The notes below the pieces were generated by a model, which was not told the DNA's origin, searched no databases, and saw only the letters and a list, made by a program, of their open reading frames with translations. A program made the translations under genes and the position numbers. A stretch of 64,000 bases of DNA, taken from NCBI GenBank assembly GCA_903832005.1, contig CAIKZO010000161.1, positions 1 to 64,000 of the forward strand, written 5' to 3'. The stretch is from Enhydrobacter aerosaccus. Lineage in GTDB: Bacteria; Pseudomonadota; Alphaproteobacteria; Reyranellales; Reyranellaceae. Numbering within the stretch: the stretch's first letter is position 1; every line of letters starts with the position of its first letter. Positions 39,405 through 59,151 of this stretch are shown here, in pieces.

Positions 39405-39806
39405 CTATCCCGCGGCCGCCGGCTTGTTGCTGTCGAGCCCCGGCATGCTGTCGAGCCACTGACGCGCGGCGTGCAACTCGCGGAAGATCATGAGCGGGCG
39501 CTGGACGTTGGCGGCCGCGGCGAAGACGGCGGCATTCTCGTAGCTCTCGTCGGAGGCCGCCACGATCGCCACGGGGCCGATCTGGCCGTGCTGTGCATAA
39601 AAGACGACCCGCTGGCCCAGCGCCTTCAGATTGTCGTCGCTCAGCGCATCGGGCGTGTGGGTGATCTCGAAGATCTTGGCGTAGGCCATCGCGCCGTCGG
39701 CGGTGACACCGGCAAAATACTTCTCGATGTCGGGTACCGTCACCGGCCCCTTGGTCACCGCCACGACCAGGCGCGCGGGATGGGAGATCGTCCAATGCAC
39801 CGGCAT
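39405..39806 (-). CDS. SpoIIAA/STAS-like small protein, copy A
   Basis: This 133-residue protein shows an alternating strand-helix pattern like SpoIIAA/STAS domains (LVVAVTKGPVTVPDIEKY, then YAKIFEITHT, GPVAIVAAS and MIFRELHAARQWLD). Proteins at 44713-45096 and 46379-46807 share the layout. The start at 39806 begins MPVHWT; longer in-frame starts have no support. The function is unknown; STAS-type proteins often bind partner regulators or nucleotides. Confidence 0.75.
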   Translation of the reverse strand: MPVHWTISHPARLVVAVTKGPVTVPDIEKYFAGVTADGAMAYAKIFEITHTPDALSDDNLKALGQRVVFYAQHGQIGPVAIVAASDESYENAAVFAAAANVQRPLMIFRELHAARQWLDSMPGLDSNKPAAAG

Positions 39807-39813
39807 CGGTTGC

Positions 39814-40026
39814 TCAGGCGCTCGCCACCGTCTGGCCGCCGGCAAAGCGCTGCGCGCCCAGCGCGGTGAGGCGGATGCGGCCATCCTGCTCCTCGACCAG
39901 GGCGAGCTGCTTCAGGCGCTCGACCGATCCGTCGCGCAGATGCTTGGGCTTGGAGATGCCGTGCGCGACCCGGCGCAATGCTGTCTCTTCGTTCGGGCTG
40001 AGTGAGGCGAGCAAACCACGTTCCAT
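39814..40026 (-). CDS. Small winged-helix-like protein
   Basis: This 70-residue protein (LSPNEETALRRVAHGI, HLRDGSVERLKQLALVEE, IRLTALGAQRFA) has the helix-helix-strand-strand pattern of a winged helix. The start at 40026 follows a strong AGGAGG. It is 7 bases before STAS-like copy A and may control or partner it. No family is certain. Confidence 0.7.
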   Translation of the reverse strand: MERGLLASLSPNEETALRRVAHGISKPKHLRDGSVERLKQLALVEEQDGRIRLTALGAQRFAGGQTVASA

Positions 40027-40277
40027 GTCGTCCTCCTGCTCCGGTTTCGGCATGAGGCACGCTCCGCGCGATAGGAGCAAGGCAGCAATTGAGATGTTTG
40101 TGTGATCGTTCGTACGGTTTCAGACATATTCGAAGAGCCCGAATCTTTTCTCCACCAAAGTGCAATATTCTCCGAATTAGCAGCGTTTAGCAGCGCCCCA
40201 ACGGGATCGGTGCGATTATTGCGACCGCGAGAAACGGGATTTGGGGTCACGTTTTGCATCCAGTTGTGTTGGGGACA

Positions 40278-40508
40278 ATGGCGACGTTCGCGTTCGCGGC
40301 CGGCTATGTCGGCTGGCGGCGCTCGACCAAGCCGCTCTACCGTCGCCTCTACGTCGAGGTCGACCCGCCTGAAGGCATGACGCGCCGTCAGTACGAACGC
40401 CAGCTGAGGAAGCGCCTCAAGCGCTGGCGAATCGTGACGACGGTTTTCTACGCCCTCGCCGGGGCGGTCGGCGGCATCCTCTTTCTCATGGTGCTCGCCC
40501 GCCGTTGA
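40278..40508 (+). CDS. Small two-helix membrane protein
   Basis: This 76-residue protein has an N-terminal hydrophobic segment (TFAFAAGYVGW), a basic middle (RRQYERQLRKRLKRWR) and a C-terminal membrane segment (VFYALAGAVGGILFLMVLA). No family was recognised. It lies upstream of the receptor triplet on the same strand, 130 bases before it. A TTG start at 40254 is possible. Confidence 0.6.
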   Translation: MATFAFAAGYVGWRRSTKPLYRRLYVEVDPPEGMTRRQYERQLRKRLKRWRIVTTVFYALAGAVGGILFLMVLARR

Positions 40509-40638: not shown

Positions 40639-41745
40639 ATGACTCCAGTCTTCTATCCCCCCTTGCAGCAGAACCGGTCCGTGGGGAGTGCGCTGTCGAT
40701 TCGCGGCTACATGATGCTGCTGATCGCCGCGATCATGCTGCCGATGCTGACCCTGGTGGCAATCATCGCGTGGGATTACGGCAAGGCCGCGCAGCGCACG
40801 ATCGAAGCACAGCGCCTGGACGTCGCCAACAACATCAAGATCCTGATCGACCGCGAGATCGACCAGACCATCGGCTTCCTCGACGGCCTGTCCAACGCGC
40901 CCGGCCTGCGCAACAACCGCTCGGAAGTGATCGACCGCGTCACCCACATGGCGCGCGACCGCGGCTACCAGTCGCTCAACGTCTACGACATGAACGGCCA
41001 GGCGCTGCTCGTCTCCCCCGCGACGCCCGAGCCGGTACCGGCCGAGAGCGTCGGCCTGAACGAGATCCGCGCCGGCAAGAAGTCCTTCGTCTCCAACCTC
41101 GTCGCCACCGCCGGCGAAAAGCCCGGCCTCTATTTCGTGTCGGTGCCGATGTATGCCGACGGCAAGGTCGTGGCGATCCTGAGCGGCGGTCTTCCGGCCG
41201 GCCGCCTGCAGCGGCTGTTCACCGAGAGCGGCATGCGGCAGGGCTGGTCGGCGGGCATCGTCGACCGCAACGGCATCCTGCTCGCGCGCACCAAGAACCC
41301 CGAGAAATTCGTCGGCATGCCGGCACAGCGGCCGATGTACGACTATGCGCGCAGCGCCAGCAACGCCGGCCTCTACCAGGTGATCGACCGCGACGGCATC
41401 AGCGTGAAGAACGCCTACGAGCGCTCGGTGACCTCGGGCTGGTCGACGTCGGTCGCCGTGCCGACCGTGATCGTCGACGCGCCGCTCTGGCACACCGCGC
41501 TCACCATGACGGTGATCGGCGCCGTGCTGACGCTGGTCAGCCTGCTGCTGGCCTTCCTCGTGGCGAGCCACCTGTCGCGGGCCATCCAGCGACTGGGCAT
41601 CGCCGCGGTCGCAATCGCCAGCGGCGACGTGGTGCGCATGCCCTCGAGCAACATCACCGAGCTGCGCGACGTCTCGCGCTCGATCGAGGTTACCGGCGCC
41701 GTCGCGCGCCGCAACCGGCGGGCGAACAAGACCTCGGCGTCCTGA
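40639..41745 (+). CDS. Receptor-like membrane protein without output domain, copy 1
   Basis: This 368-residue protein has a membrane segment at about 24-46, an extracytoplasmic Cache-like sensor region at about 50-285, a second membrane segment at about 290-312 and a HAMP-like helix pair (IAAVAIASGDVVRMPSSNI, ELRDVSRSIE). It ends about ten residues after the HAMP region. No kinase, GGDEF/EAL, cyclase or chemotaxis domain follows. The sensor region holds FLDGLSNAPGLRNNRSEV and WSAGIVDRNGILLARTKNP, typical of dCache ligand folds. The next gene starts 1 base after its stop and is a close paralogue. Confidence 0.85.
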   Translation: MTPVFYPPLQQNRSVGSALSIRGYMMLLIAAIMLPMLTLVAIIAWDYGKAAQRTIEAQRLDVANNIKILIDREIDQTIGFLDGLSNAPGLRNNRSEVIDRVTHMARDRGYQSLNVYDMNGQALLVSPATPEPVPAESVGLNEIRAGKKSFVSNLVATAGEKPGLYFVSVPMYADGKVVAILSGGLPAGRLQRLFTESGMRQGWSAGIVDRNGILLARTKNPEKFVGMPAQRPMYDYARSASNAGLYQVIDRDGISVKNAYERSVTSGWSTSVAVPTVIVDAPLWHTALTMTVIGAVLTLVSLLLAFLVASHLSRAIQRLGIAAVAIASGDVVRMPSSNITELRDVSRSIEVTGAVARRNRRANKTSAS

Positions 41746-41746
41746 G

Positions 41747-42856
41747 ATGGCGCCCATCCTCTACCCGTCGTCGCTCGACCGGTCGGAGAAGGGCGGGCTG
41801 CCGCTCAGCGGTTATATGCTGCTGCTGATCGCGGCGATGCTGCTGCCGATGCTGGCCCTCGTGGCAATCGTCGCCCGCGACTACGGCCTGGCCGCGCGCC
41901 GCACCATCGAGGCCCAGCGCCTCGACGTCGCCAACAACATCAAGATCCTGATCGACCGTGAGATCGACCAGACCGCGGGCTTCCTCGACGGTATCTCCAA
42001 TGCCCCCGGCCTGCGCAACAACCGCGCCGAGGTGATCGAGCGCGTGGCCGATATGGCGCGTGAGCGCGGCTACCGCTCGCTCGCCGTCTATGATCTGTCG
42101 GGACAGCCCACGCTCGCCTCGGTCAACGTGGCCCAGCCGCCGCCCGCCGCAAGCGTCGGCCTCGCCGAGATTGCGGCCGGTGCCCGGGTCTTCGTCTCCA
42201 ACCTCATCCCGCGCGATGGCACCGACAAACCCGGCCTCTACTACGTCTCCGTGCCGATGGTCGAGGACGGCAAACCGGTGGCCATCCTGTCGGCCGGACT
42301 GCCGCCGCAGCGCCTGCAGCGGCTGCTGTTCGAGGCCGGCCTGCGCGAACACTGGTCGGCGGGCATCGTCGACCGCAACGGCATCCTGCTGGCGCGCAGC
42401 CGTCTGCCCGAGCGCTATGTCGGCATGCCGTCGCAGGAACAGATGGTCCAGGCGGTGCACGGTACGGCAAGCGCCGGCCTGTTCGACGTGGTCGACCGCG
42501 ACGGCATCCAGGTCAAGAACGCCTTCGAACGCTCATCGACGTCCGGTTGGATGACGGGCGTCGCGGTGCCGGCGGTAATCGTCGATGCGCCGCTGTGGCA
42601 CACCGCGATCATCATGACGGTGATCGGCGGCGTACTCACCCTGGTCAGCCTGGCGCTGGCCCTGCTGGTGGCCAGTCATCTGTCGCGCGCCATCCGCCGC
42701 CTCGGCATCGCCGCGGTCGCGATCGCCAGCGGTGACATGGTGCGCATGCCGGACAGCAACATCGCCGAGCTTCGCGACGTTTCGCGCTCGATCGAGGTCA
42801 CCGGCGAGGTGGCCCGCTTCCATCGGCGCACTACCCAGGTCTCGCCGCGACAATGA
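41747..42856 (+). CDS. Receptor-like membrane protein without output domain, copy 2
   Basis: This 369-residue protein repeats the whole layout of the preceding gene: first membrane segment, Cache-like sensor (FLDGISNAPGLRNNRAEV; WSAGIVDRNGILLARSRLP), second membrane segment and terminal HAMP-like region (IAAVAIASGDMVRMPDSNI). Copies 1 and 2 are closer to each other than to copy 3 in the sensor's first half. It ends just past HAMP. The stop overlaps copy 3 by ATGA. Confidence 0.85.
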   Translation: MAPILYPSSLDRSEKGGLPLSGYMLLLIAAMLLPMLALVAIVARDYGLAARRTIEAQRLDVANNIKILIDREIDQTAGFLDGISNAPGLRNNRAEVIERVADMARERGYRSLAVYDLSGQPTLASVNVAQPPPAASVGLAEIAAGARVFVSNLIPRDGTDKPGLYYVSVPMVEDGKPVAILSAGLPPQRLQRLLFEAGLREHWSAGIVDRNGILLARSRLPERYVGMPSQEQMVQAVHGTASAGLFDVVDRDGIQVKNAFERSSTSGWMTGVAVPAVIVDAPLWHTAIIMTVIGGVLTLVSLALALLVASHLSRAIRRLGIAAVAIASGDMVRMPDSNIAELRDVSRSIEVTGEVARFHRRTTQVSPRQ

Positions 42857-43941
42857 CAACGTTCTATCCGTCGCTGCAGGACCGGCCGTCCTCGGGCGGC
42901 CTGTCGCTCGGCGGCCACATGATGGTGCTGATTGGCGCGATCCTGCTGCCGATACTGTGCCTGGTCGCGATCATCGCCTGGGACTACGGCCATGCAGTGC
43001 GGCGGACGATCGAGGCCGAGCGGCTCGATGTCGCCAACAATATCAGGATGATGATCGATCGAGAGATTGACCGCACCGTGGGCTTCCTCGACGGCATTTC
43101 GGAAAGTCCGGGCCTGCGTGGCAACAACCCCGAGATCGTGAACCGCGTCATGGGTATGGCGCGCGGGCGGGGTTTCGCGGCGATCACGCTCTACGGCCTC
43201 GACGGCCGCCCGATGATGGCGACCACCGAGCTGTCGCCGGCGGTGATGCCGCAGGCCGTCGGCCTGGCCGAGATCAAGGCCGGCCGCCCGTATTTCGTCT
43301 CGAGCCTGATCCCGACCGGCGAGAAGCCCGGCCTGTACTTTGTCTCGGTGCCGATCCGCGACAGAGGCGAAATGATCGGAATGCTCACCGGCGGCCTGTC
43401 GACAGCCCGCCTGCAGGGCGTGCTGGCGGAATCGGGGCTGCGCAAGGGTTGGACCTCGAGCATCGTCGATCGCAACGGCATCCTGCTGGCGCGCGGCACT
43501 GACGCCCAAATCTATGTCGGTCTCGAGGCGCAGCAGCCGATGGCCGATGCGGCGCGCGGCAAGGAGATGAGCGGGCTGTTCGACGAACTCAATCGCGGCG
43601 GCATGCAGATCAAGAATTCCTTCGAGCGGTCGGCGACCAGCGGTTGGGTGGCCGGCGTCGGCGTGCCGACGGAGATCGTCGAGGCGCCGCTGCGCCGCAC
43701 CGCCCTGTTCATGACGGCGATCGGCGGAATCCTCACGGTGGCGAGCCTCCTGTTCGGCTTCCTCGTGGCCAGCCACCTGTCGCGCGCCATCCGCCGCATG
43801 GGCCTCGCCGCAGCCGCGATCGCCAGCGGCGACATGGTGCGCATGCCCGAGAGCAACATCACCGAGCTGCGCGACGTCTCGCATTCGATCGAGGTCACCG
43901 GCGAGGTCGCCCGTCGCGACCGCCGCGCCAAGAAGCCGTAA
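42853..43941 (+). CDS. Receptor-like membrane protein without output domain, copy 3
   Basis: This 362-residue protein is the third tandem paralogue. The sensor differs most (FLDGISESPGLRGNNPEI; WTSSIVDRNGILLARGTDA) while the membrane and HAMP-like parts stay close (LAAAAIASGDMVRMPESNI, ELRDVSHSIEV). It too has no output domain. It starts by ATGA overlap with copy 2. A class II aldolase-like gene begins 26 bases after its stop, on the same strand. Confidence 0.85.
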   Translation: MTTFYPSLQDRPSSGGLSLGGHMMVLIGAILLPILCLVAIIAWDYGHAVRRTIEAERLDVANNIRMMIDREIDRTVGFLDGISESPGLRGNNPEIVNRVMGMARGRGFAAITLYGLDGRPMMATTELSPAVMPQAVGLAEIKAGRPYFVSSLIPTGEKPGLYFVSVPIRDRGEMIGMLTGGLSTARLQGVLAESGLRKGWTSSIVDRNGILLARGTDAQIYVGLEAQQPMADAARGKEMSGLFDELNRGGMQIKNSFERSATSGWVAGVGVPTEIVEAPLRRTALFMTAIGGILTVASLLFGFLVASHLSRAIRRMGLAAAAIASGDMVRMPESNITELRDVSHSIEVTGEVARRDRRAKKP

Positions 43942-43967: not shown

Positions 43968-44708
43968 ATGCGTAACGTCGATCCGCAGGAATGGGAGGTC
44001 CGCTGCGATCTCGCCGCCGCCTACCGCCTGATCGCCAATTACGGCATGGATGACCTGATCTACACCCACCTGTCGGCGCGCTTGCCCGGCCGGGATCATC
44101 GCTTCCTGCTCAATCCCTACGGCCTGATGTTCGACGAGATCACGGCCTCGAGCCTGATCGCCGTCGACCCCGAGGGTCATGCGGTCGAGAAGGAGGACGA
44201 GTCCAAGATCAACAACGCGGGCTTCACTATCCACTCCGCCGTGCACATGAGCCGCGACGACGCGCACTGCGTGATGCACACGCACACGACGGCGGGCATG
44301 GCGGTCGCGGCGCAGGAGCAGGGGCTGCTGCCGCTCAACCAGATGTCGATGGAGTTCTTCGGCCGCGTTGCCTATCACGACTACGAGGGCATCGCCCTCG
44401 ACCTCGACGAGCGCGAGCGGCTGGTCCGCGATCTCGGCCCGCACGATGCGATGATCCTGAAGAACCACGGCCTGCTCACCGCCGGTCGCACCGTCGCCGA
44501 AGCCTTCTACAACATGTACTACATGGAACAGGCGTGCCGGATCCAGCTGACGGCCACGCAAGGCGGCCAGAAGGTCACGATCCCGCCCGACACGGTTGCC
44601 GCCCATACCGCCGAACAGTTCGGCCAACACCCCGAGACCAAAGGCCAGCGCCCCTGGAAGGCGCTCCGCCGCAAACTCGACCGCATCAGCCCCGATTACG
44701 CGACCTGA
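43968..44708 (+). CDS. Class II aldolase/adducin-family protein
   Basis: This 246-residue protein is a zinc aldolase fold. The metal motif is HCVMHTHTTAGMAVA and a third His is in ILKNHGLLTAG; the N-terminal part has LIYTHLSARLPG. Such proteins act as aldolases or decarboxylases on sugar or acid substrates. The start at 43968 has GAGGAG upstream. It probably shares a transcript with the receptor triplet. Confidence 0.9.
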   Translation: MRNVDPQEWEVRCDLAAAYRLIANYGMDDLIYTHLSARLPGRDHRFLLNPYGLMFDEITASSLIAVDPEGHAVEKEDESKINNAGFTIHSAVHMSRDDAHCVMHTHTTAGMAVAAQEQGLLPLNQMSMEFFGRVAYHDYEGIALDLDERERLVRDLGPHDAMILKNHGLLTAGRTVAEAFYNMYYMEQACRIQLTATQGGQKVTIPPDTVAAHTAEQFGQHPETKGQRPWKALRRKLDRISPDYAT

Positions 44709-44712
44709 GAAG

Positions 44713-45096
44713 CTAGGAGCCCGACTGCTCGGCGAGCCATCGCCGGGCAGAGTAGATGTCGCCGAAGATCTGCACCGGACGGGTGTCCGCCGGCGGCACC
44801 AGCGCATTGAGATCGGCCAGGCGGCTGATCACGTCCGGGCCCGCGACCACCGCAAAGGCACCGGCCTGCTTGCCATACTTGGCGTGATAGGCCGCGAGTC
44901 GGCCGGCGAACACAGCGCGCTCGTCCGGCAACAGGCTCGACTGGCCGACACTGCAGTCGAAGATCTTGGCGTAGCCCACTGCCTTGGCCTTCTCGACGTC
45001 ATCGAGATAGCCCATCAGGTCCGCCAGGGTGATGTCACCTTCGGTCCTGCCGACCATCGTGCGGTCGAGATGATAGAACGTCACATAAATCGGCAC
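44713..45096 (-). CDS. SpoIIAA/STAS-like small protein, copy B
   Basis: This 127-residue protein shares the layout of copy A: MPIYVTFYHLDRTMVGRTEG, then LADLMGYLDDVEKAKAVGYAK, IFDCSVGQSS, AFAVVAGPD and a terminal YSARRWLAE. It is convergent with the aldolase gene, 4 bases apart. Function unknown. Confidence 0.75.
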   Translation of the reverse strand: MPIYVTFYHLDRTMVGRTEGDITLADLMGYLDDVEKAKAVGYAKIFDCSVGQSSLLPDERAVFAGRLAAYHAKYGKQAGAFAVVAGPDVISRLADLNALVPPADTRPVQIFGDIYSARRWLAEQSGS

Positions 45097-50733: not shown

Positions 50734-51357
50734 TCAGCCGTAGCGCTTCTCGGTGATGCACAGCGCCTTCGCCCATTTCTTCTTCGGCAGATTGAAGTCC
50801 TTGGGCGGATTGAACTGGCGTACGTGCCAGTGGTCGTTGGTGCTCTTCAGCAGCCGCTTGACCAGCGCCAGCATCGTGCCGTTGCCGTCTTCCTGGATGA
50901 AGACGCAGTCGGTGCCGGGCCGCACCGGGATCGTCGGGTTCACCACGACCTGGTCGCCGTGCTCGATCGCCGGGCTCATGCTGGTGCCGATCACGTAGAA
51001 GGCGAAGGGCGCCTTCACGCCCTGCATGCGTTCGCTGCGGCGGATGTAGTCGATCGGCTCGGTGGTCAGGATGATCGAGCCGTCGCTGCCGGCCTCGGCC
51101 GAGGCCCACACCGGCACGTCCGGCCGCTCACCGCTCGGCACGATCGGCTGGATGATCTGGCTGTAGAGGCCGGTGCCGTCGTCGGGCGGCACGGCTTTCA
51201 GGTAGCCCAGGATCGTCGGCAGTTCGTTTGCCTTGATCAAGCGCTCGCCCTTCAACATGCGGTTGACGGCGGCGGCGTCCTTGCCGAGGGCACGTGCAAG
51301 ACCGGCCTGGCTGAAGCCAGGGCGGTCGAGCTGCTCGGCGATCCATTTGATATCCAT
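50734..51357 (-). CDS. LexA/CI-type S24 repressor
   Basis: This 207-residue protein has an N-terminal helix-turn-helix (SQAGLARALGKDAAAVNRML, about 16-36). The C-terminal S24 domain has Ser126 in GTSMSPAIEHGD and Lys167 in ALVKRLL, with an Ala-Gly self-cleavage site (SAEAGSDG). It is therefore likely to be inactivated by RecA-stimulated self-cleavage in DNA damage. It is divergent from the early phage-type genes, with two operator-like dyads between. Confidence 0.9.
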   Translation of the reverse strand: MDIKWIAEQLDRPGFSQAGLARALGKDAAAVNRMLKGERLIKANELPTILGYLKAVPPDDGTGLYSQIIQPIVPSGERPDVPVWASAEAGSDGSIILTTEPIDYIRRSERMQGVKAPFAFYVIGTSMSPAIEHGDQVVVNPTIPVRPGTDCVFIQEDGNGTMLALVKRLLKSTNDHWHVRQFNPPKDFNLPKKKWAKALCITEKRYG

Positions 51358-57721: not shown

Positions 57722-59151
57722 CCAAAGCTTCTCGTTCCGACCCTCTCACCCTCTGGACGGACCATCCTGCGCAGTTCGTGCGCGACGTGTTCGGCGTCGT
57801 GCCCGACCCGTGGCAGGTCGAAGTGCTGGAAGCCTTCCCGCACAACCAACGGCTCGCCATGAAGGCCTGCAAGGGGCCGGGCAAGACGGCGGTGGAGGCC
57901 TGGCTTGCCTGGAACTTCCTGCTGACGCGCATCGAGCCCAAGATCGCGGCGGTCTCGATCACGGCCGAGAACCTCGCCGACAATCTCTGGTCGGAGATGG
58001 CCAAGTGGCGGGCGCGCGCGCCGATGCTCGAGGCGCAGTTCGAATGGACCAAGACGCGCATCTTCAATCGCGACAGTCCCGAGACCTGGTGGATGTCGGC
58101 GCGCTCGTGGTCGAAGACGGCCGATCGCGCGCAGCAGGGCAACACGCTGGCAGGCCTGCATGCCGATAATGTGCTGTTCATCCTCGATGAAGCGGGCGGC
58201 ATTCCCGACGCGGTGATGGCGTCCGCGGAGGCAGCACTCTCCTCGTGCAAGGAGGGCCACATCGTGCAGGCCGGCAATCCCACGCATCTCGACGGGCCGC
58301 TGTGGCGCGCCTGCACGACCGAGCGCAGCCTGTGGCACGTGACCGAGATCACCGCCGATCCCGACGATCCCAAACGCTCGACCCGCGTGAAGGCGGAGTG
58401 GGCGCGCGAGCAGATCCAGAAATACGGGCGCGACAATCCGTGGGTGCTGGTCAACGTGTTCGGCAAATTCCCGCCGGGCTCGCTCAACACCTTGATCGGT
58501 CCCGACGAGTGCCGCGCGGCCACGCAACGCGCCTATCGCGCCGAGGATGTCGCGGCGCATGCCCGCGTACTGGGCGTCGACGTGGCGCGCTTCGGCGACG
58601 ATGCCTCGGTGATCTTCCCGCGCCAGGGGCTGGTCGCCTATCCGCCGCTCAAGTACCGCAACCTCGACGGCACGCAGGGAGCCGGCGTCGTCGCGCGCAA
58701 GTGGCGGGAGTGGGGTGCCGACGCGGTGTTCATCGACGACACCGGCGGCTGGGGCGCCTCGTGGATCGACAATCTGCGCCGCATCGGCCACCAGCCGACC
58801 GGCATCGGCTTCGCCGCGCGGCCCAACGATCCGCGCTACGAGAACAAGCGCACCGAGATGTATTTCGAGGCGATCGAATGGATCAAGGCGGGCGGGGCGC
58901 TGCCGCCCATTCATACTCAAGGCGTATCCGAGCTGATCGCGGCCCTCAGCCAAACGACCTACAGCTTCCGTGGCGATCGTCTGCTGCTCGAGCCCAAGGA
59001 CCAGATCAAGGCGCGGCTGGGCTACTCCCCCGACGATGCCGACGCCTTCGCGCTCACTTTCGCCCAGCCGGCGGTACGGCGGGACACCTATGCGCACCGC
59101 ACGCCGGGCCGCGTGCTGGTCGATTACGATCCGCTGGTGGATGTAGCGTAG
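57718..59151 (+). CDS. Phage terminase large subunit
   Basis: This 477-residue protein has an ATPase with Walker A KGPGKTA (about 52-58) and Walker B LFILDEAGG, then a nuclease domain starting with VLGVDVARFGDDAS and including FIDDTGGWG and a late DADAF. Length and layout match a complete TerL that packages DNA. No portal or capsid gene follows. A strong terminator lies 18 bases after its stop. Confidence 0.92.
   Translation: MTKASRSDPLTLWTDHPAQFVRDVFGVVPDPWQVEVLEAFPHNQRLAMKACKGPGKTAVEAWLAWNFLLTRIEPKIAAVSITAENLADNLWSEMAKWRARAPMLEAQFEWTKTRIFNRDSPETWWMSARSWSKTADRAQQGNTLAGLHADNVLFILDEAGGIPDAVMASAEAALSSCKEGHIVQAGNPTHLDGPLWRACTTERSLWHVTEITADPDDPKRSTRVKAEWAREQIQKYGRDNPWVLVNVFGKFPPGSLNTLIGPDECRAATQRAYRAEDVAAHARVLGVDVARFGDDASVIFPRQGLVAYPPLKYRNLDGTQGAGVVARKWREWGADAVFIDDTGGWGASWIDNLRRIGHQPTGIGFAARPNDPRYENKRTEMYFEAIEWIKAGGALPPIHTQGVSELIAALSQTTYSFRGDRLLLEPKDQIKARLGYSPDDADAFALTFAQPAVRRDTYAHRTPGRVLVDYDPLVDVA

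Follow-up and report, generated by a model that had tools for sequence, protein, structure and literature searches.

Why should a membrane receptor extend as far as its HAMP segment and stop there, and through what could such a protein act? The question is raised by three adjacent genes in the 64,000-nucleotide stretch of Enhydrobacter aerosaccus DNA analysed here (the window), which a preliminary description took for paralogous receptors of 368, 369 and 362 residues, separated by 1 base and by an ATGA overlap and perhaps signalling through nearby STAS-like proteins. The open reading frames were found exactly so:

40639..41745, + strand: receptor 1, 368 aa; first membrane segment (TM1), dCache_1 sensor, second membrane segment (TM2), HAMP-like region, short tail, stop; orthologues in genomes G027 and G036.
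41747..42856, + strand: receptor 2, 369 aa; architecture as receptor 1; orthologues in G027 and G036.
42853..43941, + strand: receptor 3, 362 aa; architecture as receptor 1; most diverged sensor of the three; no orthologue found in G027 or G036.

Each frame starts with ATG, codon statistics identify all three as coding, and the proteins are paralogues of one family (59-70% identity), with the single-base gap lying between receptors 1 and 2 and the overlap between receptors 2 and 3. A scan of the locus for promoters and terminators returned none above chance. The sensor assignment is secure, as all three proteins exceed the Pfam dCache_1 (PF02743) cut-off of 45 bits (53.7, 48.6 and 50.7 bits for receptors 1, 2 and 3, respectively). 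The same profile check was less kind to the HAMP segment, for which Pfam HAMP (PF00672; cut-off 25 bits) gave only 13.6 bits in receptor 2 and 15.9 bits in receptor 3, with no listed match in receptor 1. The region is nonetheless recognizable, since an NCBIfam model of CreC-type kinases aligns with the TM2-HAMP part of the receptors (E 2.8e-8 to 8.5e-5, far under the family cut-off and with no kinase), the alignment ending at residue 347-350, and their AS1/AS2 region is also alignable with the HAMP regions of full kinases. In the AlphaFold model of receptor 2, a TM1 helix (20-84) leads into a two-lobed dCache, followed by a predicted TM2/AS1 helix (276-328) and a predicted AS2 helix (336-365); in the vicinity of the HAMP connector the model has low confidence. 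A PDB sequence search gave no match. By fold, the closest solved structure among single extracellular domains is 3lif, the dCache of the histidine kinase rpHK1S-Z16. Pfam and NCBIfam profile scans of the three proteins found no output domain (HisKA/HWE, HATPase and MCPsignal are all absent), and the spacing leaves no space for an overlooked one, the following gene beginning at once or overlapping the stop. Receptors 1-3 are thus confirmed as dCache_1 membrane sensors with a HAMP-like region and without histidine kinase or chemoreceptor output.

An obvious suspicion is that such proteins are decaying remnants of kinase genes, kept by chance. The kinase part is indeed missing, copy number varies, and of the 65 genomes searched from the host's genus, Reyranella, 51 carry no receptor. 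In the remaining 14, however, there are 19 output-less proteins, all of them short, intact open frames, which also disposes of a frameshift peculiar to this strain. Their delimitation is sharp: in the genus search all members of the output-less clade have E below 1e-100, and full kinases appear only from about 2e-38. Three copies occur in 1 genome, pairs in 2 (G027 and G036) and singles in 11, among which is counted G073 with two single receptors at different loci; the conservation expected by the preliminary description therefore holds for output-less receptors as such but fails for the triplet. The host genome contains no further copy beyond the triplet and no close full-length homologue, and a match to the receptor is carried by NZ_BKAJ01000049.1 of Reyranella soli, a culturable relative with one copy. 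The genes occupy several sites. The window locus has the triplet in the host, two genes each in G027 and G036, and a single gene in G073 and in G088, in the last case within a partly rearranged neighbourhood; other receptors adjoin cysND (G011, G032, G013 and G076), lie near DUF1800/DUF1501-like genes (G023 and G004) or near a cytochrome oxidase (cyo) operon (G064 and G083), the neighbours in these last two settings having been named by eye, and one further single locus each is found in G073 and G062. The clade member in G062 (L172:3271-4527), of 418 aa, has an additional hydrophobic C-terminal segment resembling a third membrane helix. In G001 and G023 the flanks of the window locus are kept around a different gene where the receptors would be, which makes it an empty site.

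A tree of the sensor regions of the 19 output-less proteins and 25 kinases separated the two groups with 100/100 support, and the full-length relatives that were scanned carry HWE_HK or HisKA-HATPase outputs. The output-less form is therefore one clade and, recurring as it does in close relatives, a maintained protein family. Given that the tree was rooted at its midpoint, the direction from kinase to output-less protein depends on how rare the output-less form is, and that rarity extends beyond the genus: a search of 115 sampled alphaproteobacterial genomes to E 1e-12 yielded 85 dCache_1 matches, among which, besides receptors 1-3, only one open frame was under 490 aa, and that frame (G302, 442 aa) sits at the end of its 3,856-base contig. 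A 401-aa frame in G280 runs off its contig end and was likewise not accepted as stand-alone. As no other clear case was seen among the 85 matches, stand-alone dCache proteins are evidently rare in Alphaproteobacteria. Within the clade, receptor 3 groups with the receptor-2 branch (93/74), and was either lost from G027 and G036 or arose and diverged fast here.

Selection speaks most directly against decay. Orthologue pairs have dN/dS clearly below 1 (for example 0.179/0.394 and 0.200/0.653), and the HAMP part alone gives much lower values (0.046/0.544 and 0.138/0.746); the ratio of HAMP to sensor conservation is about that of full kinases, whereas the C-terminal tail is not conserved. Because purifying selection acts on the HAMP part with roughly the strength it has in full kinases, and because the intact frames have a single origin, these genes are not decaying remnants, a possibility that is largely refuted and now barely credible. 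Within the window-locus subclade the constraint is stronger still, with a median HAMP dN to sensor dN of 0.36 versus 0.94 for other pairs. That the sensors would diverge more than the membrane and HAMP parts had been anticipated, and for HAMP this is so (85-91% identity among the three receptors, against 52-70% for the sensor), but the membrane segments behave inconsistently (TM1 62-69%, TM2 48-78%). The disparity is greatest between receptors 1 and 3, whose HAMP parts are 85% identical at a sensor identity of 52%, while 63 other pairs of like sensor identity reach at most 67%. The HAMP part of receptor 3 also has a lower dS against receptors 1 and 2 (0.24-0.33 versus 0.65), and part of its similarity may be due to gene conversion. 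The HAMP constraint is still visible against the single-copy G073 gene.

If the receptors are maintained and their HAMP parts are constrained, the genes around them are the natural place to look for a partner:

39405..39806, - strand: SpoIIAA/STAS-like protein, neighbour; sub-cut-off match to PF11964.
40278..40508, + strand: small predicted membrane protein of 76 aa, upstream of the receptors; a neighbour, not established as part of the system.
43968..44708, + strand: class II aldolase/adducin-family gene, separated by 26 bases from the 3' end of receptor 3.
44713..45096, - strand: SpoIIAA/STAS-like protein, neighbour; sub-cut-off match to PF11964.

The preliminary description favoured the STAS-like proteins, and SpoIIAA-like genes do flank the receptor locus in G000, G027, G073 and G088. 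In G001 and G023, however, such genes lie just as well beside the empty site, and they are missing wherever the receptors neighbour cysND, cyo or DUF1800-like genes. The family is present in all 65 genomes of the genus (2-29 copies each), its copies do not track the receptors across them, and orthologues of the 39405 protein (at least 60% identity) occur in about 34 of the 51 receptor-negative genomes as well as in 11 of the 14 receptor-positive ones. Signalling through these neighbours is thus very unlikely, and the earlier interpretation is partly supported, in that the proteins are true output-less dCache-HAMP receptors, whereas a partnership with the STAS proteins finds no support. The SpoIIAA/STAS-like proteins are in themselves strongly expanded in Reyranella, the host genome alone having 20 matches, and their STAS-type structure model is of low confidence. 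A short conserved protein of 79 aa with no Pfam match (window 39814-40053, - strand) adjoins a SpoIIAA-like gene in several genomes. Further along the window, between 50734 and 59151, a phage repressor-like gene with a peptidase part (50734-51357) and a terminase-like gene (57778-59151), both recognized by eye, suggest a prophage remnant.

The 76-aa protein was also considered as a partner, as its orthologues were seen in six genomes, all of them receptor-carrying, but in G064 its orthologue lies near an aldolase gene with no receptor between and the receptor about 29 kb away, an arrangement implying that position explains much of the link. The class II aldolase gene lies directly 3' of the receptor pairs in G027 and G036 as well, and is probably co-transcribed with the receptors in these three genomes. 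It is this association that lends some substance to the first of the two main rival explanations, in which the receptors do not signal at all: at the membrane surface the dCache would bind a compound and capture or present it, for example for the aldolase pathway, with HAMP serving only as a dimer clamp. The lack of both an output domain and a conserved neighbouring partner, and likewise the unconserved C-terminal tail, would be expected of such a binder. Yet linkage to the aldolase is not seen where the receptors occupy other loci, in G001 and G023 the aldolase gene occurs with no receptor beside it, and a HAMP constraint comparable to that of full kinases is seemingly more than a clamp requires, so that this explanation is rather doubtful.

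Comparison of the different receptor loci leaves no gene family in common but the receptor itself, save generic ABC ATPases and the related neighbourhood of locus A and G088. Consequently the partner, if there is one, is probably encoded elsewhere. A search of the host proteins for a closely similar TM2-HAMP region found none (the best, an adenylate-cyclase-like protein, at E 0.04), in an assembly about 90% complete from which a partner gene could be missing. Two observations may be recorded here in their own right. One protein at a contig end of G000 (C172:29131-30663) has about six tandem HAMP matches and is possibly a poly-HAMP kinase and a candidate HAMP partner, and in G088 two small receiver-domain-like proteins (L097:15041-15799) lie near the output-less receptor, with none at the window locus.

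The second main rival supposes that the receptors are decoys or dampeners that use their Cache, membrane and HAMP parts to pair with full-length receptor kinases or cyclases and lower the activity of these, inactive mixed dimers being formed by way of the HAMP bundle. Their grouping with kinase receptors is in keeping with this, and there is precedent for interference between kinases in RetS-GacS, where it operates through DHp domains (PMC12148439). However, those domains are precisely what receptors 1-3 lack, and with no close full-length homologue in the host the obvious mixing partner is missing; a decoy role is accordingly judged fairly unlikely.

The explanation that best fits the evidence, held tentatively and with a chance a little short of even, is that these are stand-alone, kinase-derived dCache-HAMP receptors that signal in trans through the membrane and HAMP bundle. 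Most likely a dCache-HAMP histidine kinase within Reyranella lost its catalytic part once. Each receptor would be anchored by its two membrane helices, with the Cache stalk and the TM/HAMP bundle presumably mediating dimerization; the periplasmic dCache would bind a small molecule, and the HAMP bundle may contact, or co-assemble with, a separate and unlinked signalling protein whose activity it alters. Signalling in trans is the likeliest mechanism given that HAMP is under selection without any domain behind it, although dimerization alone could account for that conservation, which, like the fruitless search for a partner, counts against the trans reading. Tandem duplication would then have provided three sensors whose dCache parts have diverged while their HAMP parts are nearly identical, and because the latter are so alike the receptors may have a partner in common or form mixed assemblies. 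In its fullest form, which is quite unlikely, the trans mechanism would amount to a combinatorial receptor, three co-expressed output-less sensors, with different ligand domains but a common HAMP, whose mixed dimers or arrays would all signal through HAMP-HAMP contact to a single unlinked kinase or cyclase.

Known systems place these proteins without quite accommodating them. Their nearest homologues are the dCache-HAMP-HWE/HisKA kinases of Alphaproteobacteria with sensors of the rpHK1S-Z16 type, which share with them the sensor fold, the membrane layout and the position of HAMP, but from which the receptors differ in having no kinase part at all and in an identity of only about 25-30%. A Cache-containing membrane protein that works by ligand-enhanced contact with a second membrane protein has precedent in LapD-GcbC (PMC6050961), although GcbC is a diguanylate cyclase with an output domain of its own. 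The closest parallel is SMP_2, a Cache superfamily module related to DUF2222, the sensor of BarA/GacS kinases, and likewise apparently severed from a histidine kinase and retained as an output-less protein in its own right; in the 2016 survey of the superfamily it was the only exception among families with known output domains, the survey models having been built from output-domain proteins, so that stand-alone members were possibly under-counted (PMC4822843). SMP_2 is also the sole case of a stand-alone Cache protein of this kind found in the literature covered, which lies largely outside subscription journals. Receptors 1-3 differ from it in being dCache_1 proteins, in retaining a HAMP-like region, in being alphaproteobacterial and in their tandem amplification, and a Pfam scan of them extended to E 1 gave no SMP_2 match. 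A maintained output-less dCache-HAMP clade would therefore be a second, independent case after SMP_2, and one in which the relay segment is also kept. If the combinatorial reading were true, sensing would be separated from output in a bacterial receptor. More broadly, these proteins offer a natural system for asking whether HAMP bundles pass signals between separate proteins.
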